Below are positions 2,656 to 63,214 of a stretch of 64,000 bases of DNA, piece by piece; position 1 is the first letter of the stretch; every line of letters starts with the position of its first letter. The notes under the pieces are model-generated. The model did no database searches and had not been told where the DNA came from. It saw only the letters and a list, made by a program, of their open reading frames with translations. The position numbers and the translations under genes were made by a program. The stretch comes from a virus: the IMG/VR virus record IMGVR_UViG_3300028008_000005, positions 50,690-114,689 of that record; one strand, given 5' to 3'.

Positions 2656-2727
2656 ATGTGGACTAAACCAGCTTATGAAAATATAAGACTTGGATTTGAA
2701 ATCACTATGTATTTTAGTGTTAGATAA
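2656..2727 (+). CDS. pqqA: PqqA-like pyrroloquinoline quinone precursor peptide
   Basis: A 23-codon ORF whose product begins [15 protein letters not shown] and continues ITMYFSVR. This matches the short PqqA peptide family (typically 22-24 residues: W near the N-terminus, an aromatic, then GFEVTMY). The Glu and Tyr that PqqE crosslinks to make PQQ are present with the obligatory three-residue spacing (E15, Y19). A good Shine-Dalgarno (AAGGGGA, 2644-2650) lies 5 bases upstream. No PqqB-E genes are visible here, so the peptide would have to be processed by host PQQ enzymes. It sits 10 bases after the second redox gene and 29 before the EF-hand protein. The motif match is strong for so short a gene. 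Confidence 0.8.
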
Positions 2728-43463: not shown

Positions 43464-46400
43464 CACAGTTAATAGATTTAGGTAAATTAAGATTTCACTT
43501 TGCGGGTGACTGGGCTTCTGGTACTACCTACGAATCCAATGACATTGTAAAATACGGTGGTAATGTATATGTTTATACGTATGCATTAAAATCTGCTGGT
43601 GTTTTACCTACAGATGACACTCGCTGGGCCTTAATGGTTGAAGGCTTTAGATTCCAGGGTGAATTTGATGTTACTGTTGACTATAAAGTCGGCGATACAG
43701 TAGCACATGGTGGTGTTGTTTATGTTGCTATTGCTGATTCTGTAAACACTACACCACCCAATGCTACATACTGGAGCAAATTCCTTGATGGTATTCAATA
43801 TGAGGGAATTTATGATCCGGTAGGTGTATACCAAAAGAGCGACGTAGTTAACTACGGTGGTTCAATATACATTGCTACACAAGATACATCTGGTAATTTA
43901 CCAACAGATGCTACTTTCTGGAATAAGTTCGTAGAAGGTGTAAGCCCACAAGGCGTATATAACGACGCTACAGCATATGTACCAAACGACTTGGTAGCAT
44001 ACGGCGCTAACATCTACCGAAATAAAATCGAAAGTACTGGCAACGTTCCTTCTAATGTAACATATTGGGAACTTTACATTGGTGGTATTATCTTTACGGG
44101 TACATTTAATCCCGTTACAGAGTACTTTGTAAATGACTTGGTTATTTACGGTAACACAATTTATCGATCACGCCAAACTCAATCTGCTGTACTTCCTACT
44201 GTTACAGCTAACTGGGAATTGCTAACTGGCGGTGTTAACTACTCCGGTAACTGGGACGTTGCTACACAGTATTACATCGGTGATATTGTTGTATATGGTA
44301 ATAACTCTTACCGTGCTACCGTAACTACACTTGGTGCTAATCCAACTGATCTGGTTGATTGGGTATTACAAGCTGGTGCAACATCATATCAAGGCGTATA
44401 TTCTAACGCGACTACTTACTATATTGGCGACTTAGTTAACTATGGTGGTAACGTATATCTTAACATAGCAGAATCAGTTGGCGATGTACCGACAGATACA
44501 AGTCATTGGTCATCATATTCTGCTGGATTCTCCTATCAAGGAGTGTGGTCAAGCGCTACTCAGTATTACATTGCTCAAGTGGTTAACTACGGTGGATCGC
44601 TATACCAAGCTGATGTTGATAATAGCAATACTAATCCTACAGACACAGCGTCATGGAGTAAGATCGTACCAGGCATTAAATCGCTAGGTCCATGGGCAAC
44701 GCTAACAGAATATGCTACAGACGAAGTGGTTACATATGGCGGTAACACGTTTATCGTTCTATTACCACACGCTGCTGGTTCAGACTTTAATGTTGATCTC
44801 GCTGCTGGTAAATGGCAAAAATTTAACTCTGGCATTCGTTGGAGAGGCATTTGGTCATCAGCTACACAATATCTAAAAGATGATGTAGTAAAGGCTGGTT
44901 CATCCTCCTTTATTGCAGGCGAAGATGTAATCGGCGGTAATTCCCCAGCAAGTGATCCTGTTCCACCAGAATGGCTTGGCTTTGCAACAGGTGCTGAAGG
45001 ATTCCTATCAAAAGATGGCGATACAATGTTGGGTTTCCTTACATTGGATGCAGATCCTACTGACGCTTTACATGCGGCAACTAAAGCATATGTAGATCGC
45101 TTTGTTAATGCTACAGATGGTGGTACAGTTGAAGGCCCATTAATATTCGACAACACTTCCTCGGGTGGTGCTGGACTTACCCTGCAGAATGGTGCTGATC
45201 TTACTGTTGATGGTGGTACTGTTACACTTGAAAACGGTGCTACACTTTCAATTGACTCAGCATCAACCCTTGCAGAAGTTACTGTAGACGGTGATATTAA
45301 TCTAAATGGCGGTAACCTAGACACTACGCAGACCTCTATTAATATAGTTAATGCCAACGCTACAACAGTTAATTTTGCAGGTGCGGGTACAGCAGTGAGT
45401 ATTGGTGCTGCTACTGGTACTACAACGATTAATAATAACCTTGTCGTTACAGGTACAACAGCATTTAACGGTGGTACAATTGAGCTTGGCGATGGTGATG
45501 CAGATAACGTTGTGTTTGGTGCTGATGTTAACTCGGCAATTATTCCAAATATTGATGATACCTACGACTTAGGTACTGCTACTAAAGAATGGAAAGATTT
45601 ATTCCTCGACGGTACTGCAAAGATTGATACAGTCGTCGTTGATGAAACTCTAAGTGTTACTGGTAATACCTATCTTACAGGCGAGCTAGATACTGGAATT
45701 GGCGGTACTACATACACTAATACTTCTCTTGATCCAACAGGCTTTGACAACAGCCACGCAACAACACGTGGTGTTATTGAATTCTCTGATAATGGTACAA
45801 GAGTATATTCAATTGGTACCGACGGCGTAGTAACAGAGCGTGAAGATTCTACCTTTGCAACAGGTACTGCTTACTCAACTGCTGCTACTGCAAATACTTT
45901 GGTTATGTATCCAGCAGCTGGTCAGGCTAACTTTACCTACTACGTTAACGGAGTACGCTACGAAAAGACTGCATTAGAGTCAGTTACATTAGCTGGTACA
46001 CCTACACTATATCATTACTTCCACTTTGCTGATGGCGTATTAAGTTCTTCTACTACACGAGACGACGCATCATTAATTAGTAATGCTCAAGTTGCTTCAA
46101 TCTACATTAGTCCATCTAATAATCGTATTACCTATCTTTCAGACGAAAGACATGGTATATCAATTGATGGTGATAGCTTAGTCTATGCTAATAAAGATGG
46201 CCTTGAGGTAATTAGCGGATTTGGTCTAACAGGAACTGCTGGATCAGAGAATTATGTATCTACTTCTGCAGGTGTACTTAGAAATGCAGATCTTAGAATC
46301 GATGCTCCGGTTAAAACAACAAATAAGTTTGCTTCTCGTCTTGCTACAGATTGGAAAATTTCAGACTTCGGCAACACATTAATATCCAACAAGCTAAGTA

Positions 46401-49848: not shown

Positions 49849-51285
49849 ATGGCTGATATACTATTATCTAATTCTTTAGAGAACCTTGCTAAGTCTCATA
49901 TTTCAGCTAATGCTAAAATAGACTACAAGAAGCTCTTAGGATCTAGTCTGAAAGACTTTTTGGATGCTTTGTTTACGAATAATATTTCTTCAGGCCCATG
50001 GCAACCGTTTACTGGCGCTGTTGCAGCCTGTCCTTTATATCTTCTGTCTTGCGGATCGCGATTAAGCTCATGTGAGAATAACTTTTCTGGTTCAGGATCA
50101 CAAGTCGGCGATAAATTCTGCGGTACCGATGATAATCCGTGGCGACTAGAAAACGTATTATTAGGACAACTTACAATTTCCAATGCAGACGTTGTTAACT
50201 CAGTATTAACTTTATCTTCGATATTAAATGAAGTATCTATTAGTGGCTATACCTCTGATATTTCGAAAGACATCCAATTACAACATGCGGTTTTAAGAAG
50301 TGAATATATTTCTGACGGGGGGTCAACAGCTACAGAAATTTTAAGTAATTGGTACGGAGTCGGTGTTGCTCCAGATAATTCTGGGGCAAAGCTTAGCAAC
50401 GATAACACCTTTAAAGTATGTGGAACAAATTGGACATTCGGCGAAGGCGGATCTTGTACTTGGACAGTCCCGAACGGGGCCACTAGAGCCAAGTTTCAAG
50501 TATGGGGAGCAGGAGGTGGAAGCAATCCAGGCTGTTGTTGTGGAGGAAGTCCAGGAGGTCCTACTGGGGCTTATGCTGAAGCCACCATGACAGTATCGCC
50601 AGGCGATACATACACTATTTGCTCCGGTTGTTCATGTAACCAGTATCTTTGTAGCAACTCACAGCCGGGTCCTGGATGTATGTCAGGTGTTACAGGGCCT
50701 GGTATATGTTGTTTATCGGCTCATGGCGGGCACTGTACTTCCGGAAGTCCTAGGCAAAGCATGTATTATCTTCGGCAAACAGGTCAAGTTGTCGGCGGGC
50801 CCGGCGGAGGATGTTGCAGATTTGAAAGCTTTTACTGCACTTCTAGCGGGCCCTGCTGGTGTTCAAACGGGGAATATTGCTATGATAACAGCTGTGCAAC
50901 GTGTGGAGTAGTTGCAATGTATCCTGACTGTTGCAACTTTACAAATGGATGTAGCTGCATAAATCTAGATGCAGCGTATTGTATTACTGGATTGTCAGGA
51001 ATTAATAGAACAGTTAGAGGTTTGCTAGGCGGGGGATGCCTGGATACAAATAACTATGGTTATCATATTCGTCCTCCTGTTATTGATGCAGACACAGGAT
51101 TATGTTTTTGCGGTGGCTGTCGGTGCGCAAGCTTTTCATCAGGCACTTGCTGTGGTGGATGTAACGGTAGGGATTGGCTATTTCATCCTGGTCATGGAGG
51201 AGCTCATACCCACATTATGGGTGGTACTAATGAGCATAAATCTGACGCTGGTAAAGCTGGTATGGTCCAGGTCTCATGGGTTTAA
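49849..51285 (+). CDS. Cys/Gly-rich adhesin-like fibre tip protein (copy 1)
   Basis: 478 residues with about 38 cysteines by my count. The N-terminal 180 residues are ordinary (MADILLSNSLENLAKSHISA). From about 185 on, a domain starts CTWTVPNGATRAKFQVWGAG, the Gly-rich phage-adhesin motif, followed by dense Cys clusters (GCCCGG, CSGCSC, GPCWCSNGEYC, GTCCGGCNG) and a C-terminal FHPGHGGAHTHIMGG with many His. Disulfides or metal binding are possible; if the protein is made in the cytoplasm, metal is more likely. Likely receptor-binding. The next gene is a paralogue. Confidence 0.65.
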   Translation: MADILLSNSLENLAKSHISANAKIDYKKLLGSSLKDFLDALFTNNISSGPWQPFTGAVAACPLYLLSCGSRLSSCENNFSGSGSQVGDKFCGTDDNPWRLENVLLGQLTISNADVVNSVLTLSSILNEVSISGYTSDISKDIQLQHAVLRSEYISDGGSTATEILSNWYGVGVAPDNSGAKLSNDNTFKVCGTNWTFGEGGSCTWTVPNGATRAKFQVWGAGGGSNPGCCCGGSPGGPTGAYAEATMTVSPGDTYTICSGCSCNQYLCSNSQPGPGCMSGVTGPGICCLSAHGGHCTSGSPRQSMYYLRQTGQVVGGPGGGCCRFESFYCTSSGPCWCSNGEYCYDNSCATCGVVAMYPDCCNFTNGCSCINLDAAYCITGLSGINRTVRGLLGGGCLDTNNYGYHIRPPVIDADTGLCFCGGCRCASFSSGTCCGGCNGRDWLFHPGHGGAHTHIMGGTNEHKSDAGKAGMVQVSWV

Positions 51286-51300
51286 TAAAAGGATAAAAAA

Positions 51301-52698
51301 ATGGCTGATATTATAGTTCAAAATGGTATTAATAAGGTAGCATCTGCCGTAATACAGGTAGGAAGTAATATAGACTATGTTACTTTATTAGGGGAATCAC
51401 TAGCTTCAAGGCTTACTGCAATAATTAACGCAAATACTACAGTCGGTTCTCCATATTACTCAACGATAGCGACTACTAAATTATTATGTGACCTTTCGAG
51501 TGCAGGGTTTATAAGCAAATGCACATGCAGTTATAGTGGATCAGGCTCGACCTATCCAGGACAAACAGGCACACAGGTTTGGACGTCTGGGGAGGTTTTA
51601 AAGGGGGGAGCTTTCGAAAAATCTTTAATCGAAATATCAGGGGCTTTTAAAAACCTTGATACAGAATTAAATAATATAGCCACTATAGAACCTGATAGAG
51701 TAAATCTTGATTTATATACAGAATATTATTCGTTAAAAAGCACTTTTTCTGATACTACTATTTTAGGTAATTGGTACGGAGTCGGAGCAGATGAAGTACA
51801 AGGCGCGGCTTTAAGTTCTACAAATAGAATAAAAGTATGTGGAACAGATTGGGCGAGTGGAGAAGGCGGAACTTGTACTTGGACAGTCCCGGCCGGGGCC
51901 ACTAGAGCCAAGTTTCAAGTATGGGGAGCTGGGGTTGGTACTAATCCAGGCTGTTGTTGTGGAGGAAGTCCCTTTGGAACTACTGGGGCTTATTCAGAAA
52001 TGTTTCTTAACGTAACTCCCGGTGAAACATATACGGCGTGTTCAGGATGCTCATGTAGTATTTATTGCTGCAGCAATACTCTTCCAGGGCCGGCTTGCAA
52101 TAGCGGAGTAACAGGTCCTGGTATATGCTGCCTAATAGCTAAAGGGCAAGGAGCTTGCTCGGCAGCGAGCTGCAATAATATGAATTTTGTTCGTTGCGAA
52201 CAAGGCAGTGGCGGCGCGTGTTATAGATACCAAAGCATATATTGCACAAACAGCAGCGGCTGCTGGTGTTCAAATAACGAATATTGCTATGATAACAGCT
52301 GTGAAACGTGTGGTACTGTATCAGTAATCCCTTCCTGCTGCGGAGATATGACTACGTATTGCAGCTGTAGTACCTTAGATAGTTACTGTGTGACAGATGG
52401 CGACGGCGCAAAAAGAGGTCATAGAGGAATATACGGCGGTGGCTGTTTAGATCAAAACAATTATGGATTCCATAATAGACCGCCTATTATTGATGCAGAC
52501 ACAGGATTAGAATACCCTAAAGACTCTGGTTGTTATCTTATGACATTTACATCAGGCACTTCATGTGGTGGATGTAACGGTAAGGATTGGGCATTTCATC
52601 CTGGTCATGGCGGGGCCGGAAATCATATTATGGGTGGTACTAATGATCATAAAGGTGATACTGGTAAAGCTGGTATGGTTCAGATTTCTTGGATATAA
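51301..52698 (+). CDS. Cys/Gly-rich adhesin-like fibre tip protein (copy 2)
   Basis: 465 residues, paralogue of the preceding gene. The N-terminal third has diverged (MADIIVQNGINKVASAVIQV), while the C-terminal two thirds keep the CTWTVPAGATRAKFQVWGAG motif, most Cys clusters (GCCCGG, CSGCSC, EYCYDNSCETCG, CGGCNG) and the FHPGHGGAGNHIMGG end. Between copies the positions after the Gly-rich motif vary most, as expected for two receptor specificities. Tandem, 15 bases apart. Confidence 0.65.
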   Translation: MADIIVQNGINKVASAVIQVGSNIDYVTLLGESLASRLTAIINANTTVGSPYYSTIATTKLLCDLSSAGFISKCTCSYSGSGSTYPGQTGTQVWTSGEVLKGGAFEKSLIEISGAFKNLDTELNNIATIEPDRVNLDLYTEYYSLKSTFSDTTILGNWYGVGADEVQGAALSSTNRIKVCGTDWASGEGGTCTWTVPAGATRAKFQVWGAGVGTNPGCCCGGSPFGTTGAYSEMFLNVTPGETYTACSGCSCSIYCCSNTLPGPACNSGVTGPGICCLIAKGQGACSAASCNNMNFVRCEQGSGGACYRYQSIYCTNSSGCWCSNNEYCYDNSCETCGTVSVIPSCCGDMTTYCSCSTLDSYCVTDGDGAKRGHRGIYGGGCLDQNNYGFHNRPPIIDADTGLEYPKDSGCYLMTFTSGTSCGGCNGKDWAFHPGHGGAGNHIMGGTNDHKGDTGKAGMVQISWI

Positions 52699-53418: not shown

Positions 53419-53466
53419 ATATACTACAGACATATAAATTAATATAATTATTGAATAGGTTATTTC

Positions 53467-54501
53467 ATGAAAAAAGCGTTTTTTATAAACGGTGGCGTGG
53501 GAAGGGTTCTCTGCTCCATTCCCGCCTTAGAATGGCATAAGGAAAATATAGACCCGAGCGTTGTAATTGTAGCAGAAGCTTGGCTGGAAATTTTCTTTAC
53601 TAGTCCTATATTAAGAGATAACGTATATCCTATAGGCCACAAGGGGCTATTTGAGGATAACCTTATTGATCGCGAAATCATATCCCCTGAACCGTATCGA
53701 CTTAATCCATACTTTAATCAAAAGTGTGACTTAACCCAAGCCTTTGACATATTAATTAATGACTTGCAAGAAATTCCAAAAAGCAAGCCAATTAACCTAG
53801 AGGTTTCTCGTTTAGATCAAGCTTATGGTTACAATTTTATTAATCAGGTTAAATCACAAACTGGTAAAGAAAAGGTAGTTATTTTTCAGCCTTTAGGGTC
53901 TGGAGCTAACATAAACGGAGACTTCTTACTAGATCAGTCAGGAAGAAGCTTTGAGCTTAACGACATAGTAAAAATAACTAAAGAGCTAGTAAAAGACTAT
54001 GCTGTTGTATTAATGACTAATATTGATATTCCTGTACAAGAAAATATAGGCGCCATAATTCCTAATGGGGCTAATCTTCTTGAATGGATGGGCATTATTA
54101 ATGCAGCAGACTATTTCCTAGGATGTGACAGTATGGGTCAGCATTATGCTAATGCCTTAAATAAGCCAGCTACTGTGGTAATCGGTTCTACCTTCCCTGA
54201 AAATATATCATATCCAGATAATAAGAATTTTACTCTTATAGATAATGGAAAAGATATTCGAAAGTATATTCCTATGAGAATTACCCAAGATTTTACTGGG
54301 GAAAGAAACAACGAAGACGCTATGGTATTGGACAATAAACAGGTAGAAAAAATTATTAAGAGTGTTACTGATAAACTTGGTAAAAGCAAGAAAAACAAAG
54401 TGCCTAAAATAACCCCTGCAGCGGCGTCTCACGTCCATGGACCCGATTGTTCCCACGGTAAAGCTGGGCAACCCATTTCTCCACCCTTTGCTAAGAAATA
54501 A
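53467..54501 (+). CDS. GT9 (heptosyltransferase)-like glycosyltransferase
   Basis: 344 residues. N-terminal FFINGGVGRVLCSIPALEWH is the GT-B start of GT9 enzymes; later VVIFQPLGSGANINGDFLLD, a NAADYFLGCDSMGQHYANAL segment and KPATVVIGSTFPE match the donor-binding half (D-S-xx-x-H-x-A, as in ADP-heptose:LPS transferases). The C-terminal tail is unusual: AASHVHGPDCSHGKAGQP, a His/Cys-rich metal-binding-like end. It could change host LPS (superinfection exclusion) or glycosylate virion parts. First gene of the operon with its own promoter. Confidence 0.7.
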   Translation: MKKAFFINGGVGRVLCSIPALEWHKENIDPSVVIVAEAWLEIFFTSPILRDNVYPIGHKGLFEDNLIDREIISPEPYRLNPYFNQKCDLTQAFDILINDLQEIPKSKPINLEVSRLDQAYGYNFINQVKSQTGKEKVVIFQPLGSGANINGDFLLDQSGRSFELNDIVKITKELVKDYAVVLMTNIDIPVQENIGAIIPNGANLLEWMGIINAADYFLGCDSMGQHYANALNKPATVVIGSTFPENISYPDNKNFTLIDNGKDIRKYIPMRITQDFTGERNNEDAMVLDNKQVEKIIKSVTDKLGKSKKNKVPKITPAAASHVHGPDCSHGKAGQPISPPFAKK

Positions 54502-54525: not shown

Positions 54526-56319
54526 ATGTCTAACCAAACAGGATACATCCTAGGTATTTCCCGTGGGCACAATGCTGGCGCTTGCTTGTTAAAAGATGGC
54601 AAGATTGTTTTTGCTTTAGAAGAAGAAAGACTTTCTAGACAAAAATATGACGGAGGACCGTACGCGTGCATGATGAAAGTTAAGGAATACACTGATAAAC
54701 TAGATTATATCTTTATCTCTCATACTCAATCATTAAAAGATACAGGAGCAACCGTTGAATTTATTGGTGACGATGTTTATACTGGACTAGCACGTAAAAT
54801 GGGATTGATCGAAAGAAAAAACGTCAATCTCAGGGAACATCCTCAAGTTATTGATTTAAGCCATCAGCATCATAAAATACATGCCGCTTGTTCTTTTTAC
54901 AGATCTGGATTTGATTCCGCTGTATCTCTTATTGTGGATGGAGCTGGATCCGTAGAGTTTGTTGGCCAAGGAGGAGCAGCGCTTTGGGAAGTAGAAACAA
55001 TTATCGATTGTGACTTCCCTGCTAAATTTAATACTTTATACAAGCATCAAGGCACTGTGGAAAGAATGTCTTCGGGCATAGATCCTAAAAGGAGTGCTAA
55101 GCATCTTGGAGAAGATGGTACTTTCTTTAGTGTTATTTCTGATACAGCTGGTATTGTTAAAGTTTATGAAGCAGTGACAGAATATTGTGGGTTCTCTGGG
55201 ATTGAAGCTGGTAAAACCATGGGGCTTTTCCCATACGGAAACCCCAATAAGGCTATACCAGAGCTATTTAGAAAGGATACTGAAATTCCTTTATCTGATA
55301 GAAATGTTACTGTTCCTACGTATCCTGGCTCAGCTATTATAAATTCTAACGTTTTTGAGTCTTTAAACGATTCCGGTAAAGATTTAACGCTTCTACAATC
55401 TCGTCGAGATCTAGCATACGCTTTACAAACCCAAACTCAAGATCAAGTTCTAAATCTTATTCTTAAAGCTGCAGAAATGTCCGGTAAAAATAAAGTAATT
55501 TTATCAGGTGGTTATGGCTTGAATTGTGTAGCAAATTATCACTACCTAGATAAGCTAAACGAGGAAGGAATTGAGCTATATGTTGAACCAATTTCAAATG
55601 ACGGTGGTACGGCGATCGGGGTTGCTCTTTGGGGTTACTATGAGGTATCCCAGTCTACAGAAAAACTAAATGGTCGTGAGATTTATCTTGGTCCAGAGTA
55701 TAACTATAAGCAAAGTGAGATTGAAGCTTTAGCAGCTCGATATAATGCTATTGTAGAAGATGCTGATGACGATAAAGTTATTGAGACTATGCGCAATAAG
55801 AATATTGTTGCACTGTTCCAGGGTCGATCAGAGAATGGTCCACGTGCTTTAGGTAATCGTTCACTGATGTTTGATCCTACCTTTAAGGATGGAAAAGACT
55901 TTGTTAACGAGATTAAGCATCGCGAGTACTTCCGGCCATTTGCTGGGTCGATCCTTGTTGAAGACGTGCACGAATGGTTTGATCTCCGTGGAATGGAAGA
56001 TTCGCCCCACATGATGTATGCTGTATCATGTAAAGATGGGGTTGAGGAAAAGATTCCATCTATTATTCACGTTGATGGATCATGCCGTATACAGACTGTA
56101 TCAAAGGAAGACAACCCGATCTACCATCGTATTATTTCTAAGTTCAAAGAAGAGACTGGTGTACCTATTATCTTTAATACGTCATTTAACCTTGGAGGTG
56201 AACCGCTGGTTGAGACCCTTGAAGATTGTCTATGGACACTACAGCAAAGTGATATTCAATATCTCTACTTGCCAGAATACGGTAAAATGCTAACCGTCCC
56301 TAACATAAAAGTAATCTAA
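54526..56319 (+). CDS. NodU/CmcH-type carbamoyltransferase
   Basis: 597 residues, full length for the family. N-terminal ILGISRGHNAGACLLKDGKI and ALEEERLSRQK, then HQHHKIHAACSFYRSGFDSA and VDGAGS form the Kae1-like domain. The C-terminal YrdC-like part has LFQGRSENGPRALGNRSLMF, EIKHREYFRPFAGSIL and FNTSFNLGGEPLVE. These enzymes move a carbamoyl group from carbamoyl phosphate, through carbamoyl-AMP, to a hydroxyl of a sugar or other acceptor. Placed after the glycosyltransferase, so the acceptor is probably a surface or virion sugar (inference). Confidence 0.88.
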   Translation: MSNQTGYILGISRGHNAGACLLKDGKIVFALEEERLSRQKYDGGPYACMMKVKEYTDKLDYIFISHTQSLKDTGATVEFIGDDVYTGLARKMGLIERKNVNLREHPQVIDLSHQHHKIHAACSFYRSGFDSAVSLIVDGAGSVEFVGQGGAALWEVETIIDCDFPAKFNTLYKHQGTVERMSSGIDPKRSAKHLGEDGTFFSVISDTAGIVKVYEAVTEYCGFSGIEAGKTMGLFPYGNPNKAIPELFRKDTEIPLSDRNVTVPTYPGSAIINSNVFESLNDSGKDLTLLQSRRDLAYALQTQTQDQVLNLILKAAEMSGKNKVILSGGYGLNCVANYHYLDKLNEEGIELYVEPISNDGGTAIGVALWGYYEVSQSTEKLNGREIYLGPEYNYKQSEIEALAARYNAIVEDADDDKVIETMRNKNIVALFQGRSENGPRALGNRSLMFDPTFKDGKDFVNEIKHREYFRPFAGSILVEDVHEWFDLRGMEDSPHMMYAVSCKDGVEEKIPSIIHVDGSCRIQTVSKEDNPIYHRIISKFKEETGVPIIFNTSFNLGGEPLVETLEDCLWTLQQSDIQYLYLPEYGKMLTVPNIKVI

Positions 56320-56904
56320 ATGCGGGATATAATAACCCACGTAAAGAATGTGCTAACCCCTGAGGAGTGCCAAGCTATTATTGACGACCAACTCCCTCGG
56401 GTTCAGCAGGGTATGGTTGGTGGTGGTAAAATGGTTGCCCTGAAGGTAAGAAAAAGCCAGGTATCTTTTATAAGGGGGAAAGACCATCCATTAAGACCTT
56501 TAGTAAAGCGTCTACATAATATTATAACAGATATTGCTTGGAAAGTACATCAGACTGAAATAACATTCTTTGAAGATGCTCAGTTTACAGCATATAAGCC
56601 TATCGGATTTTATAAAGCACATGTGGATGTACAAAGGGTAGCACCGATGAGAACTATATCAGCTACTATTGAGCTAAGCGATCCTAAGAATTATATAGGT
56701 GGTGGTATTACTATACATAATCATCCTAAGTCTAAAGTTCAGCCAAAAGAGCGTGGAGGCCTAATAACATTTCCATCCCTGTCACTACATGAAGCAAACA
56801 CGGTTTGGTGGGGTAATAGATACTCATTAGTAATATGGGGATTAGAAAGACATCCCTCTGAAACAGATCCTAATCTACCTAAATGGAAAAAGCAACCGTC
56901 ATGA
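56320..56904 (+). CDS. 2-oxoglutarate/Fe(II)-dependent oxygenase
   Basis: 194 residues. Iron ligands H101-x-D103 (FYKAHVDVQR) and H157 (LHEANTVWWGNRYSLVIW), with R167 for 2-oxoglutarate. N-terminal VLTPEECQAIIDD is typical of phage P4H-like oxygenases. Substrate unknown: protein side chain, nucleic acid base or small molecule. Begins directly after the carbamoyltransferase stop and ends in ATGA with heme oxygenase, so translation is coupled along the operon. Confidence 0.85.
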   Translation: MRDIITHVKNVLTPEECQAIIDDQLPRVQQGMVGGGKMVALKVRKSQVSFIRGKDHPLRPLVKRLHNIITDIAWKVHQTEITFFEDAQFTAYKPIGFYKAHVDVQRVAPMRTISATIELSDPKNYIGGGITIHNHPKSKVQPKERGGLITFPSLSLHEANTVWWGNRYSLVIWGLERHPSETDPNLPKWKKQPS

Positions 56905-57440
56905 CACTAAAAGAGCAAACTCAGGATCTACACGAAATAGCAGAAAAGAATACCTTTGCTCAGATGCTACTTGGCGGAAAACTTAATGAGCAGCAGTATG
57001 GTACATATCTTGCTAATCTTTGGTTAATCTATAGTGTCTTAGAAAAGATTGCTGAAGAGAATGGTGCACTCAAAGGTATCGAAGACATCAAAAGATCACA
57101 TGAGATTCGTGCTGATTTGCTTGAGCTTAATGTTAAGGATCAAGTGATTGTCCCTGCAACATACATGTACATAACCCATCTTGATAATGAGTTTGCTAAT
57201 AATAAGAGGCCAGGTATACTGGCCCACATTTATGTACGTCACTTTGGTGACTTGTATGGTGGACAAATAGTTAAGAAGATGGTTCCAGGATCTGGTATGA
57301 TGTACGAGTTTCCTGACCGTGCAGGACTAATTGAAAAGACCCGATCTATGCTAACTGAGGACCTAGGTCCAGAAGCAAGAATGGGATTCGAATTTGCTAT
57401 AGCGCTATTTGAGGATCTGGTTAATGAGCTTAATCTTTGA
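56901..57440 (+). CDS. ho: Heme oxygenase
   Basis: 179 residues from the ATGA start at 56901; an in-frame ATG at 56883 lies inside the previous gene. Proximal heme ligand H11 in LKEQTQDLHEIAEK, then MYITHLDNEFANNKRPGILA and AHIYVRHFGDLYGGQIVKKM, where the Gly-rich distal helix (GDLYGGQ) sits on the O2 side. Short compared with cyanobacterial HO1 (about 240) but core-complete. It opens heme to biliverdin, releasing CO and iron, using ferredoxin electrons. The product is the substrate of the next gene, which overlaps by 17 bases. Confidence 0.92.
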   Translation: MTLKEQTQDLHEIAEKNTFAQMLLGGKLNEQQYGTYLANLWLIYSVLEKIAEENGALKGIEDIKRSHEIRADLLELNVKDQVIVPATYMYITHLDNEFANNKRPGILAHIYVRHFGDLYGGQIVKKMVPGSGMMYEFPDRAGLIEKTRSMLTEDLGPEARMGFEFAIALFEDLVNELNL

Positions 57441-58110
57441 TAGACTAGAAGAGCATGCGGGCAATTTACAGTCTATACTAAATTCTAGGCTGTTACGCTC
57501 AGATGAGACGCACGATTTTCCATGGGACAATTTAGTATATAATGGTAAAGGATCAAGAAGAGCTCACATTGACATTGTAGATAAGCGTAAAGAAAAGAAG
57601 CTTTATATGATGCACCTTTGTGTATTTCCCTCTATATACTCCTCTGCCCCTATATACGGATTTGATCTTATCGCTGGGCCAAATAAGGTAACCGGTGCAT
57701 TCCACGATTTTAGTCCTATAAAATGTGATCACCCTCTTAATGATATATTTTATAATAGGGTTAAAGGATATTCTTGGAGTAAGAAACGAGAGTTACCTGA
57801 ATGGGCTAAAGCTATATTCTCTGAGAACATGGTATCAGCTGGCAACATAAGAGATTCAAAAGAGCTAGATGAAGTACTTAATTTATCAGTTTGTAATCTG
57901 CTAGAGTACTTAGATTACCTTGAGGGTGAAACCGAGATTGTTTCATCTGCCGAGCAACTAAAGATTATTACAGACTACACAGAAGCACAGAATCGTTACT
58001 GTCACTTTCAAAAGCAAAATCCTCACACCCCACGAGTTATGGAATCACTAGGCTATGATCCAGATACCGTAAATAGATTTATTCAGACCTGTCTCTTCCC
58101 AGAAATATAG
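57424..58110 (+). CDS. Ferredoxin-dependent bilin reductase, PcyX-like
   Basis: 228 residues from the ATG at 57424. Core of the PcyA/PebS (HY2) family: AHIDIVD, LYMMHLCVFP, APIYGFDLIAGPNKVTGAFH, ELPEWAKAIFSEN and QNRYCHFQKQNPHTPRVMES. Compared with PcyA (recollected alignment), Glu76 is replaced by Asp (D50), His88 is kept (H64) and Asp105 is kept (D81). PebS has no His at position 88, so this is PcyA-related. The Glu-to-Asp change points to the viral PcyX group, which makes phycoerythrobilin from biliverdin. Partnered with heme oxygenase just upstream. Last gene of the operon. Confidence 0.88.
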   Translation: MSLIFDRLEEHAGNLQSILNSRLLRSDETHDFPWDNLVYNGKGSRRAHIDIVDKRKEKKLYMMHLCVFPSIYSSAPIYGFDLIAGPNKVTGAFHDFSPIKCDHPLNDIFYNRVKGYSWSKKRELPEWAKAIFSENMVSAGNIRDSKELDEVLNLSVCNLLEYLDYLEGETEIVSSAEQLKIITDYTEAQNRYCHFQKQNPHTPRVMESLGYDPDTVNRFIQTCLFPEI

Positions 58111-58151: not shown

Positions 58152-58159
58152 TATAAATA
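58152..58159 (+). promoter_or_regulatory. Late-type promoter box TATAAATA
   Basis: Predicted +1 at 58165, 19-base leader with AGGA before the ATG at 58184. Start of the neck/terminase late operon. Confidence 0.7.
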
Positions 58160-58183: not shown

Positions 58184-58519
58184 ATGGCTATATACGCAAA
58201 CCTAACAGCGGATCAAGGTTCTACATTTATTAGTGTAGTATCATTAGTAGACGATACTAATGAGCCTTTAGATCTTACTGGTTACACTACTAGTGGGCAA
58301 GTAAGAAAAACATACAGTTCAACAACTTCTGTAGATTTTACTACAACTGTTTCTACACCAACAAACGGCCAGATTCAACTTCAGCTAACTGATATACAGA
58401 CTGGTGGAATGAAAGCTGGTCGATACGTTTACGATGTTGAAATCTCATCTGGTGGTGGTACAGTTACAAGAGTTATTGAAGGTCAGTTGGAGATTACTCC
58501 AAGCGTTACTAGGGGATAA
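58184..58519 (+). CDS. Small beta-sandwich virion protein
   Basis: 111 residues: ANLTADQGSTFISVVSLVDD, EPLDLTGYTTSGQVRKTYSS, then GRYVYDVEISSGGGTV. This is the BppU_N-like Ig fold pattern seen in many phage baseplate/neck-associated proteins. First gene of the 58-64 kb late operon; 2 bases to the next gene. The function is structural by inference. Confidence 0.6.
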   Translation: MAIYANLTADQGSTFISVVSLVDDTNEPLDLTGYTTSGQVRKTYSSTTSVDFTTTVSTPTNGQIQLQLTDIQTGGMKAGRYVYDVEISSGGGTVTRVIEGQLEITPSVTRG

Positions 58520-60426: not shown

Positions 60427-61176
60427 ATGGCTAATCCAACAACTAGGGTTACCCTGGTCGACTATTGTTTACGTCGGCTAGGATCTCCAGTAATTGAGAT
60501 AAATGTTGATGAAGATCAGATTGAAGATAGAATTGACGATGCTATGCAATTCTATCAGGAGTATCATCATGACGCAACTATTCGTACATATCTAAAACAT
60601 CAGATTACTGCTGACGATATTACAAACAAGAGTATCCCTATTAGCGATAGTATTATCTACGTAAAAAACGTATTTCCGATATCCGCTTCTAACTCTACTT
60701 CTGGCATGTTTGATATTAAGTATCAGATGCACATAAATGATCTATATGATATGAGCTATATCGGTGATCTTGTGCACTATGAGATGCTACAGCAATATAT
60801 TTCTTTACTTGACCTGAAGCTAAACGGTTCAGGTATGTTTACCAGATATAATCGGCATATGAATAAACTTATGCTTGATATAGACTGGGATACTGAGTTA
60901 AAGGTAGACGACTATATTATTGTTGAATGCCAAGCTGTAGTAAGTCCTTCCTCATATCCAGACATATATAATGATATGTTTCTTAAACAATATGCTACAG
61001 CACTGATTAAACAACAATGGGGTGCAAACCTTATAAAGTTCGACGGAATGGCAATGCCTGGTGGTGTTACCGTTAACGCTCGTCAAATCTTTGATGACGC
61101 AACAGAAGAGCTAAATACAATTAGAGAGCAAATGCAATTAAATTATGAAACCCCTGTCGACTTCTTTGTAGGGTAA
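60427..61176 (+). CDS. 13: gp13-like neck protein
   Basis: 249 residues (T4: 309). TRVTLVDYCLRRLGSPVIEI, NVDEDQIEDRIDDAMQFYQE, YHHDATIRTYLKHQIT is the gp13 N-terminal signature; later YIVVECQAVVSPSSYPDIYN and EELNTIREQMQLNYE. gp13 forms the neck with gp14 on filled heads and allows tail joining. Followed 3 bases later by gp14. Confidence 0.93.
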   Translation: MANPTTRVTLVDYCLRRLGSPVIEINVDEDQIEDRIDDAMQFYQEYHHDATIRTYLKHQITADDITNKSIPISDSIIYVKNVFPISASNSTSGMFDIKYQMHINDLYDMSYIGDLVHYEMLQQYISLLDLKLNGSGMFTRYNRHMNKLMLDIDWDTELKVDDYIIVECQAVVSPSSYPDIYNDMFLKQYATALIKQQWGANLIKFDGMAMPGGVTVNARQIFDDATEELNTIREQMQLNYETPVDFFVG

Positions 61177-61179
61177 ATC

Positions 61180-62097
61180 ATGGCTACTAATGTATACTTT
61201 TCGCAAAAGGTAAAGTCCGAGCAAAACCTTTACGAAGATATTGTTATAGAATCCCTGAAAATGTACGGGCAGGATATCTATTATCTTCCCCGTGATGTTG
61301 TTCACGAGGATACAATACTTAATGAAGATGTAGAAAGCAAATTCGATGCTTCCTATACTATTGAGATGTATATCGAGAGCGTTGATGGGTTTGAAGGCGA
61401 CGGGGATATTCTATCTAAGTTTGGTGTAGAGATCAGAGACCAAGCAACCTTTATAGTTTCCCGACGTAGATGGGAACAGCTTATCGGTATTCATAATAAT
61501 GGTATTAACTCCGTTAGGCCAAATGAGGGTGATCTTTTATATCTTCCCCTTTCTAAAGGCTTATTCGAGATTCGCTTTGTAGAAGACGAACAACCATTCT
61601 ATCAGTTATCTAATCTTCCAGTCTATAAGCTTCAATGTGAGCTATTTGAGTTCTCTGGTGAAAAATTCAATACTGGCCTTGTTAATCTTGACGATAATAT
61701 TAACAGTCAAGCTACTCCGCAGTTAAATATTCAATTAGGTACAAACAACAATTCAATTGAATTTATTATTGGGGAAAATATACAGCAAGAGATAACGTCA
61801 GGCTCTGGTGAATATATTACTGGTAATGTTGTAGCATTTGATTCTGTAACAAGGATAATTTCTATAAACGAATGGGCAACAACCGACGGTAAGTATCATG
61901 ACTTTAATCTAGTTTCTGATTTGGTAGGCTTAACCTCTGGTGCTACCTATGATGTTACTAACGTATATCAGATTGACGATACGCTAGATAAGCAGGCGTT
62001 TGGTAATGATAACCTATCCCAAAACCAGGAGTTTGAAGCTGTTAAAAGTGATATTATAGACTTTTCTGAAAATAATCCCTTTGGAGATCTTGGTTGA
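61180..62097 (+). CDS. 14: gp14-like neck protein
   Basis: 305 residues (T4: 256). ATNVYFSQKVKSEQNLYEDI, VIESLKMYGQDIYYLPRDVV, then VEIRDQATFIVSRRRWEQLI are typical gp14. A C-terminal insert (about 190-270, IGENIQQEITSGSGEYITGN) adds length. Neck partner of gp13. ATGA-type overlap with gp15 (62094-62097). Confidence 0.93.
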   Translation: MATNVYFSQKVKSEQNLYEDIVIESLKMYGQDIYYLPRDVVHEDTILNEDVESKFDASYTIEMYIESVDGFEGDGDILSKFGVEIRDQATFIVSRRRWEQLIGIHNNGINSVRPNEGDLLYLPLSKGLFEIRFVEDEQPFYQLSNLPVYKLQCELFEFSGEKFNTGLVNLDDNINSQATPQLNIQLGTNNNSIEFIIGENIQQEITSGSGEYITGNVVAFDSVTRIISINEWATTDGKYHDFNLVSDLVGLTSGATYDVTNVYQIDDTLDKQAFGNDNLSQNQEFEAVKSDIIDFSENNPFGDLG

Positions 62098-62855
62098 TGT
62101 TATCAGATCATTTCTATCACGCAGCTATTCGTCGTACTATCGCGGCATTCGGAACTATCTTTAATGATATTAAGGTAGTAAGAAAGGATGGTAGTGGCGA
62201 GGTAAAAAATATTACTCGTGTACCTCTAGCATACGGACCTAAGCAAAAGTTCTTAGCTCGTATAGAAAGCGAGTCAGATCTAGGTACATTAAAAGGAGGA
62301 GTAGCTATTAAGCTTCCTCGCATGTCATTTGAAATTTCTGGAATGACATATGATGCTGCTTCTCAAGTAAACAAGATGAATCAGCTTAAGCTAGGTTCTA
62401 TTACATCTGGGACCAGGCAATCAGTATATACCCAAACGCCATATAAAATGAATATTGATCTTTCTATAATGGCTAAGAATCAGGATGATGCATTACAGGT
62501 TGTAGAGCAAATACTTCCATACTTTCAGCCCGATTATACTATAACAATTAAAGAAATACCAGAGATCGGGTTAAAGACCGATGTACCTATTGTACTTAAT
62601 GCGGTTAGTTTAACTGACGATTATGAAGGGGATTTTGTTTCACGTAGAGCTATAGTGTATACACTTAGCTTTGAATTACGTGTAAAATTTTATGGACCTG
62701 TTAGAACAAAGACTGTTATCCTTAATTCTTCAGTTGACCTAAACGACCTAGATACCTTTGGGTTCTTGGAAGAGGTGTCAGCAGCTGGAGATCCGGATAC
62801 TCTTGATTTGGATACAGGAATTGATATAACCGACGATAATATTATTACACCATGA
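62094..62855 (+). CDS. 15: gp15-like tail terminator
   Basis: 253 residues (T4: 272). LSDHFYHAAIRRTIAAFGTI, FNDIKVVRKDGSGEVKNITR, VPLAYGPKQKFLARIE is the gp15 start. gp15 forms the hexameric cap on the finished tail and joins it to the neck. Overlaps gp14 and gp16 by four bases each. Confidence 0.93.
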   Translation: MMLSDHFYHAAIRRTIAAFGTIFNDIKVVRKDGSGEVKNITRVPLAYGPKQKFLARIESESDLGTLKGGVAIKLPRMSFEISGMTYDAASQVNKMNQLKLGSITSGTRQSVYTQTPYKMNIDLSIMAKNQDDALQVVEQILPYFQPDYTITIKEIPEIGLKTDVPIVLNAVSLTDDYEGDFVSRRAIVYTLSFELRVKFYGPVRTKTVILNSSVDLNDLDTFGFLEEVSAAGDPDTLDLDTGIDITDDNIITP

Positions 62856-63214
62856 GAAAAGATAAAACAGATATAGATGACGATTACGAATTTGCTAGAG
62901 CTAAATATTACAATCTAGTAGAGAAAGGCGATGAAGCTCTGGAGCTTATGATGGATCTTGCTCGAGAGTCCGAGCATCCGCGAGCATTTGAAGTTTTATC
63001 TAATATGATGAAGCAAAACGCTGAAGTTGCAGATCGGCTTATGGAACTGCAAAAGAAAAAGAAAGAAGTTGAAAAGGTTGAAAAAGACAACCCATTAGCT
63101 TTACCTAATAGCATGACGCAGAATAATGTTTTTGTTGGATCTACAACGGATCTACAAAGAATGTTAGCCTCTAAATTTGAAGAAAAAGCCAATGTCATTG
63201 AGTCTGAAGAATAA
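62852..63214 (+). CDS. 16: gp16-like small terminase
   Basis: 120 residues (T4: 164). An acidic N-terminus (MRKDKTDIDDDYEFARAKYY) and a central helical pair (AFEVLSNMMKQNAEVADRLM, ELQKKKKEVEKVEKD) fit the small-terminase oligomerising core; the C-terminus NNVFVGSTTDLQRMLASKFE matches marine T4-like gp16. It recognises DNA and stimulates the gp17 motor. It overlaps the gp17 start by 23 bases. Confidence 0.9.
   Translation: MRKDKTDIDDDYEFARAKYYNLVEKGDEALELMMDLARESEHPRAFEVLSNMMKQNAEVADRLMELQKKKKEVEKVEKDNPLALPNSMTQNNVFVGSTTDLQRMLASKFEEKANVIESEE

Follow-up and report, generated by a model that had tools for sequence, protein, structure and literature searches.

The 64,000-nucleotide stretch of viral DNA analysed here (the window), which corresponds to bases 50690-114689 of a T4-like virus record of 114,689 bases, carries adjoining genes for a heme oxygenase (HO) and a PcyX-type ferredoxin-dependent bilin reductase (FDBR). 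In our interpretation, which we hold with good confidence, a T4-like (Kyanoviridae-like) virus with a non-cyanobacterial, most likely proteobacterial host, probably a non-photosynthetic bacterium from water, carries the pair in an auxiliary metabolic cassette that is probably transcribed late, and HO and PcyX would together lead to phycoerythrobilin (PEB). Judged by the gene order of Mosig, the record is possibly ~15 kb short of a full genome; seen with most of its genome, the cassette is a well-anchored case for the published puzzle of phycobilins from phages of non-photosynthetic bacteria. The features of the locus, in window positions, are:

53433..53440, + strand: late-promoter-like word TATAAATT, one mismatch to TATAAATA, 27 nt 5' of the ORF at 53467 (motif scan)
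53467..54501, + strand: phrog_8954 protein, 344 aa (phrog_8954, E = 4e-135)
54526..56319, + strand: NodU-like carbamoyltransferase, 597 aa, in the cassette gene run (PF16861, E = 7.6e-57; PF02543)
56320..56904, + strand: 2OG-Fe(II) oxygenase (PKHD-hydroxylase-like), 194 aa, directly 5' of HO (PF13640, E = 1.3e-9; phrog_61)
56901..57440, + strand: heme oxygenase, 179 aa, or 185 aa from the ATG at 56883 (PF01126; PDB 1iw0; His and GDLYGGQ)
57424..58110, + strand: PcyX-type ferredoxin-dependent bilin reductase, 228 aa, D50/H64/D81 (PF05996; 5owg; tree; residue survey; AlphaFold/Foldseek)
58152..58159, + strand: late-promoter-like word TATAAATA, 25 nt 5' of the next gene at 58184 (motif scan)
60427..63214, + strand: neck gp13, gp14, tail sheath stabiliser gp15 and small terminase (gp15 and gp13 profile matches; Mosig homologues)

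Between 53467 and 58110 the phrog_8954 gene, the carbamoyltransferase, the 2OG oxygenase, HO and pcyX form a run with hardly any gaps, of which the phrog_8954 gene is the probable first member; a relative of its product in the locus L091 matches glycosyltransferase family 9 weakly (PF01075, E = 6e-4, below the cut-off). The carbamoyltransferase is conserved in the related loci L004, L005, L007, L008 and L011, and the 2OG-Fe(II) oxygenase adjoining HO is likewise conserved in relatives. On the 3' side of pcyX come tail-fibre-type genes and then gp13, gp14, gp15 and the small terminase; the slot of the cassette is defined by these virion genes. The late region before the cassette contains, at window 49849-52698, two adjoining cysteine-rich ORFs of 478 and 465 aa with 38 and 35 Cys. 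The T4-like late-promoter word TATAAATA is found 25-45 nt before several ORFs, and its occurrence just after pcyX suggests the start of a new transcription unit there. With promoter words bracketing the run, the cassette is probably transcribed late; we infer this co-transcription from position, because the 13 occurrences of TATAAATA in the window are not a significant excess over the 9.1 in shuffles.

The HO ORF (56883-57440, +) matches PF01126 with E = 3.3e-22. Within this ORF, an ATG at 56901 shares the sequence ATGA with the stop of the 2OG oxygenase gene before it, and because of this overlap it is probably the true start, as the preliminary description had it; at the other end, the gene overlaps the start of pcyX (ATG 57424) by 17 nt. 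All 55 homologues retain the proximal His (H17 when counted from the start at 56883), and the G-D-L-Y-G-G-Q motif of the distal helix agrees with the G-D-x-x-G-G pattern used as a test for the HO-1/HmuO type. The closest solved chain is that of HmuO (PDB 1iw0, E = 2.7e-13), a biliverdin-producing enzyme, and the predicted product of the viral enzyme is biliverdin IXalpha.

The reductase (57424-58110) matches PF05996 with E = 4.2e-21 (76 bits, cut-off 31). By sequence, its best solved structure is 5owg, PcyX_EBK42635 (E = 4e-56), with PcyA far behind at 1e-13, and it is 52.5% identical over 183 residues to PcyX_EBK42635 versus 27.9% to Synechocystis PcyA. The structure predicted with AlphaFold (pLDDT 89, pTM 0.88) has the FDBR fold; in Foldseek, 5owg is top by target-normalised TM-score (0.85) and PcyA 2g18 comes first by E-value. 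Alignment places D50, H64 and D81 at PcyA positions 76, 88 and 105, exactly as had been claimed from a first reading of the DNA. The comparison enzymes have E/H/D in the case of PcyA and N at the second position in that of PebS, while D/H/D is found in 58 of 60 viral groups (95% identity, site covered, among the matches listed); the two exceptions, both outlying viral sequences, carry Q or K in place of the first D. FDBRs of this outlying kind, in which Gln or Lys aligns with PcyA Glu76, are encoded in L012 and L013 near gp59/gp32 genes, and in L013 a 527-aa ORF separates HO from the FDBR.

In a tree of 66 sequences, the phylogeny that the preliminary description had proposed as a check, the window reductase groups with PcyX_EBK42635, Mosig and other viral proteins, outside PebS, which sits at the tip of a very long branch, and split with support of 99/95 from cyanobacterial and cyanophage PcyA; PcyA of alphaproteobacteria, a member of the same AX clade as PcyX (PMC10151467), was not among the 66. 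An assignment to PcyA is contradicted by Asp rather than Glu at position 76 and by a score of 94.9 bits against a cut-off of 206 for the NCBIfam PcyA equivalog, and one to PebS by His64 where PebS has Asn88 and by a place in the tree off the PebA/PebS branch. Glu76 is reported to be absent from PcyX (PMC10151467). The earlier assignment to PcyX rather than PebS or PcyA is supported by the identity to 5owg, the tree split and the D/H/D signature. FDBR specificity is not reliably predicted from sequence (PMC13193486), and PEB is the presumed product of this PcyX-type enzyme. In the pathway that we propose, HO would cleave the heme ring, giving biliverdin IXalpha, CO and Fe(II), and PcyX, translated from the start overlapping the HO gene, would take up the biliverdin and, with electrons presumably from a host ferredoxin, reduce it in a four-electron reaction by way of 15,16-dihydrobiliverdin to PEB.

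The relationships of the virus point away from cyanophages. Of the 24 genes that the record has in common with every one of the six reference phages, 12 are most similar to C48C1, 5 to Melnitz, 4 to Mosig and 3 to HTVC008M, where Mosig and HTVC008M are phages of SAR11, Melnitz is a phage of OM43 and C48C1 has no host stated in its record; Caulobacter phage Cr30 and cyanophage S-SSM4 are the best match for 0 each. In this gene-sharing analysis, which had also been put forward as a check, the core genes are therefore never closest to the cyanophage compared. That no photosystem gene lies in the window holds for the entire 114.7 kb record, in which psbA, hli, cpeT, petE, PTOX and transaldolase gave no significant tblastn match. 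The pqqA-like gene noted earlier is genuine, encoding at window 2656-2727 (+) a 23-residue PqqA (TIGR02107, 49.1 bits with the cut-off at 20); PqqA has been described before in phages whose predicted hosts are Methylophilaceae (PMC7678222). A loose PqqA pattern occurs in at least 120 IMG/VR stretches, with mostly one and the same peptide among the matches listed, and 31 of the 121 such loci read share other genes with the window virus. The record also encodes a two-piece tmRNA (RF04321, 97 bits; alpha_tmRNA, 50 bits), and the phage affinity, the absent photosynthesis genes, this tmRNA and PqqA together make the host most likely a proteobacterium and not a cyanobacterium. The suggestion of a non-cyanobacterial host in the preliminary description is supported by the same core-gene affinities, PqqA and alpha-type tmRNA; as the case of Melnitz illustrates, a tmRNA of the alpha type does not fix the host class (PMC9004378). 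Neither result that the preliminary description had named as a refutation, a reductase within the PebS/PcyA clades or a host among the cyanobacteria, emerged from the analysis. The permuted two-piece gene lies just outside the window, at record 44386-44769 (L018:10486-10869), and its tag is ANDEAFALAA, versus GEDNFALAA in Mosig.

Homologous pcyX loci are widespread in IMG/VR, an alignment-based scan finding at least 451 stretches. All loci read contain HO except three cut off by a contig end and L095, L098 and L104; with at least 451 loci, and HO in all complete kept loci but these last three, the pairing of HO and reductase is not a matter of chance, and such a number of loci with near-invariant active-site letters argues for selection on the reaction. 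In L095, L098 and L104, ALA synthase (AlaS; TIGR01821, 546 bits in L098) lies directly 5' of pcyX, overlapping it by 4 nt, and no HO was found in any part of these fragmentary records of 8-24 kb. A few loci have something extra between HO and pcyX: in L047 and L065 it is a 2OG oxygenase, in L026 a nitrilase-like gene, and L027 has both, the nitrilase-like genes being named from their sequence by eye. No pcyX was found on plasmids, and two candidates for a cellular pcyX were rejected. L026, a MAG contig of 335 kb labelled Neomarinimicrobiota, has phage-like neighbours around its run of HO, nitrilase-like gene and pcyX (by eye, Hsp20-like, ClpS-like and cell-wall hydrolase-like ORFs) and is probably a large phage binned in error. 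In L027, a fragment at the edge of a 29.9 kb contig, the order is HO, oxygenase, nitrilase-like gene and FDBR; other sampled genomes of its class had only FDBR-like proteins to which the window reductase has no tblastn match. The tag ANDEAFALAA was likewise without a match in 385 genomes sampled from the class of L027, a result that carries no information on the host.

The 2OG oxygenase next to HO is a recurrent neighbour, flanking HO in 19 of 54 sequence groups versus 14 of 606 other ORFs (2.3%). It lies directly 5' of HO in 17 of the 54 groups (Fisher p = 3e-12, for groups that are not independent by descent and comparison ORFs that were called crudely) and between HO and the FDBR in 3, and these oxygenases come from more than one family (PF13640, PF13759).

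Two alternatives concern what the enzymes make and for whom. The reductase could be a true PcyA that makes phycocyanobilin (PCB), since PcyX and alphaproteobacterial PcyA share the AX clade (PMC10151467) and the enzyme of a similar phage, CB_2, first named PcyA/X, proved to be PCB-forming (PMC11480375). The CB_2 enzyme, however, is said to stand midway between PcyX and PcyA, whereas the window protein falls inside the group of the biochemically defined PcyX_EBK42635 and carries Asp where PcyA has Glu76, and we consider this alternative very unlikely. Still more improbable, to the point where we give it hardly any weight, is that a cyanophage-type gene supplies phycobilisomes during infection of a cyanobacterium, which is the role proposed for hemO/FDBR in cyanophages and was at first assumed for the marine cassette too; the record has no photosystem, hli, cpeT, petE or PTOX homologue and does have PqqA, its core genes are never closest to the cyanophage compared, and its tmRNA is of the alpha type. 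The preliminary description had placed the gene pair outside a typical cyanophage context, which is true, but the setting is not unusual, PcyX being normal in such phages (PMC13193486, PMC11480375).

With HO and PcyX leading to PEB as the preferred reading, the remaining alternatives concern what the virus gains. We give equal weight, in each case somewhat short of an even chance, to heme turnover that frees iron, with biliverdin disposed of reductively, and to a bilin that is itself the purpose, whether as ligand, antioxidant or signal, and distinctly less to some other role. That the cassette frees heme Fe(II) for Fe(II)-dependent enzymes, PcyX only clearing biliverdin, is a tentative possibility for which the 2OG-Fe(II) oxygenase genes beside HO (19 of 54 groups against 14 of 606 ORFs) speak, and an iron role has already been discussed in print; yet these phages are rich in 2OG genes in general, the groups are related by descent and the ORFs crudely called, and L095, L098 and L104 pair PcyX with ALA synthase in records with no HO, which puts weight on bilin or tetrapyrrole supply. 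A narrower version, in which heme would be broken down late mainly to provide Fe(II) to the neighbouring phage 2OG-Fe(II) oxygenases and biliverdin reduction would act as a pull or disposal step, strikes us as fairly unlikely; if true, it would amount to an iron-salvage use of a pigment pathway by viruses of non-photosynthetic bacteria. Loading of the bilin into a host photoreceptor or bilin-binding globin is doubtful in our view: the HO-PcyA island of Bradyrhizobium ORS 278 includes a phytochrome gene, and in non-photosynthetic bacteria bilin-binding globins adjoin pre-PcyA genes, but the record contains no GAF domain and no photoreceptor is among the annotated recurrent neighbours of pcyX. 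The 2OG-oxygenase neighbours and the AlaS-pcyX pairs lend themselves to opposing readings, the former that the iron matters and the latter that the bilin does.

The window cassette is a new, well-supported case of a hemO-pcyX cassette that is already in print for Mosig-like pelagiphages, where its role was left as a question (PMC11480375), PcyX being known from some phages and not from cyanophages (PMC13193486). New to our knowledge are the count of relatives, the near-invariance of D/H/D, the enrichment of 2OG oxygenases beside HO and the HO-less AlaS-pcyX pairs; that AlaS can occur near hemO-pcyX is already published. Mosig EXVC030M shares the order 2OG-HO-FDBR, the overlapping ends, gp13 downstream and the slot, with 46% identity for the reductase and 31% for HO. 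It differs by an adjoining ferrochelatase gene, additional 2OG oxygenases and a 2Fe-2S ferredoxin of its own, and the window run by its carbamoyltransferase and phrog_8954 genes; no ferrochelatase was detectable in our record, a cysteine-motif search turned up no convincing ferredoxin, and ALA synthase and PqqD were not found there. In HTVC008M the corresponding slot is occupied by a ferrochelatase and four 2OG oxygenases. The freshwater phage CB_2 resembles the window virus in its HO and FDBR and in a predicted non-photosynthetic host, but its vPcyA-X makes PCB and it carries AlaS, absent from our record (PMC11480375). PebS of cyanophage P-SSM2 differs in its FDBR branch, its N at position 88 and its cyanophage context, and is alike in the overall reaction, from biliverdin to PEB. 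The phage phycoerythrobilin synthase PcyX_EBK42635 (5owg) has the D/H/D letters and the fold in common with the window reductase, at 52% identity over 183 residues.
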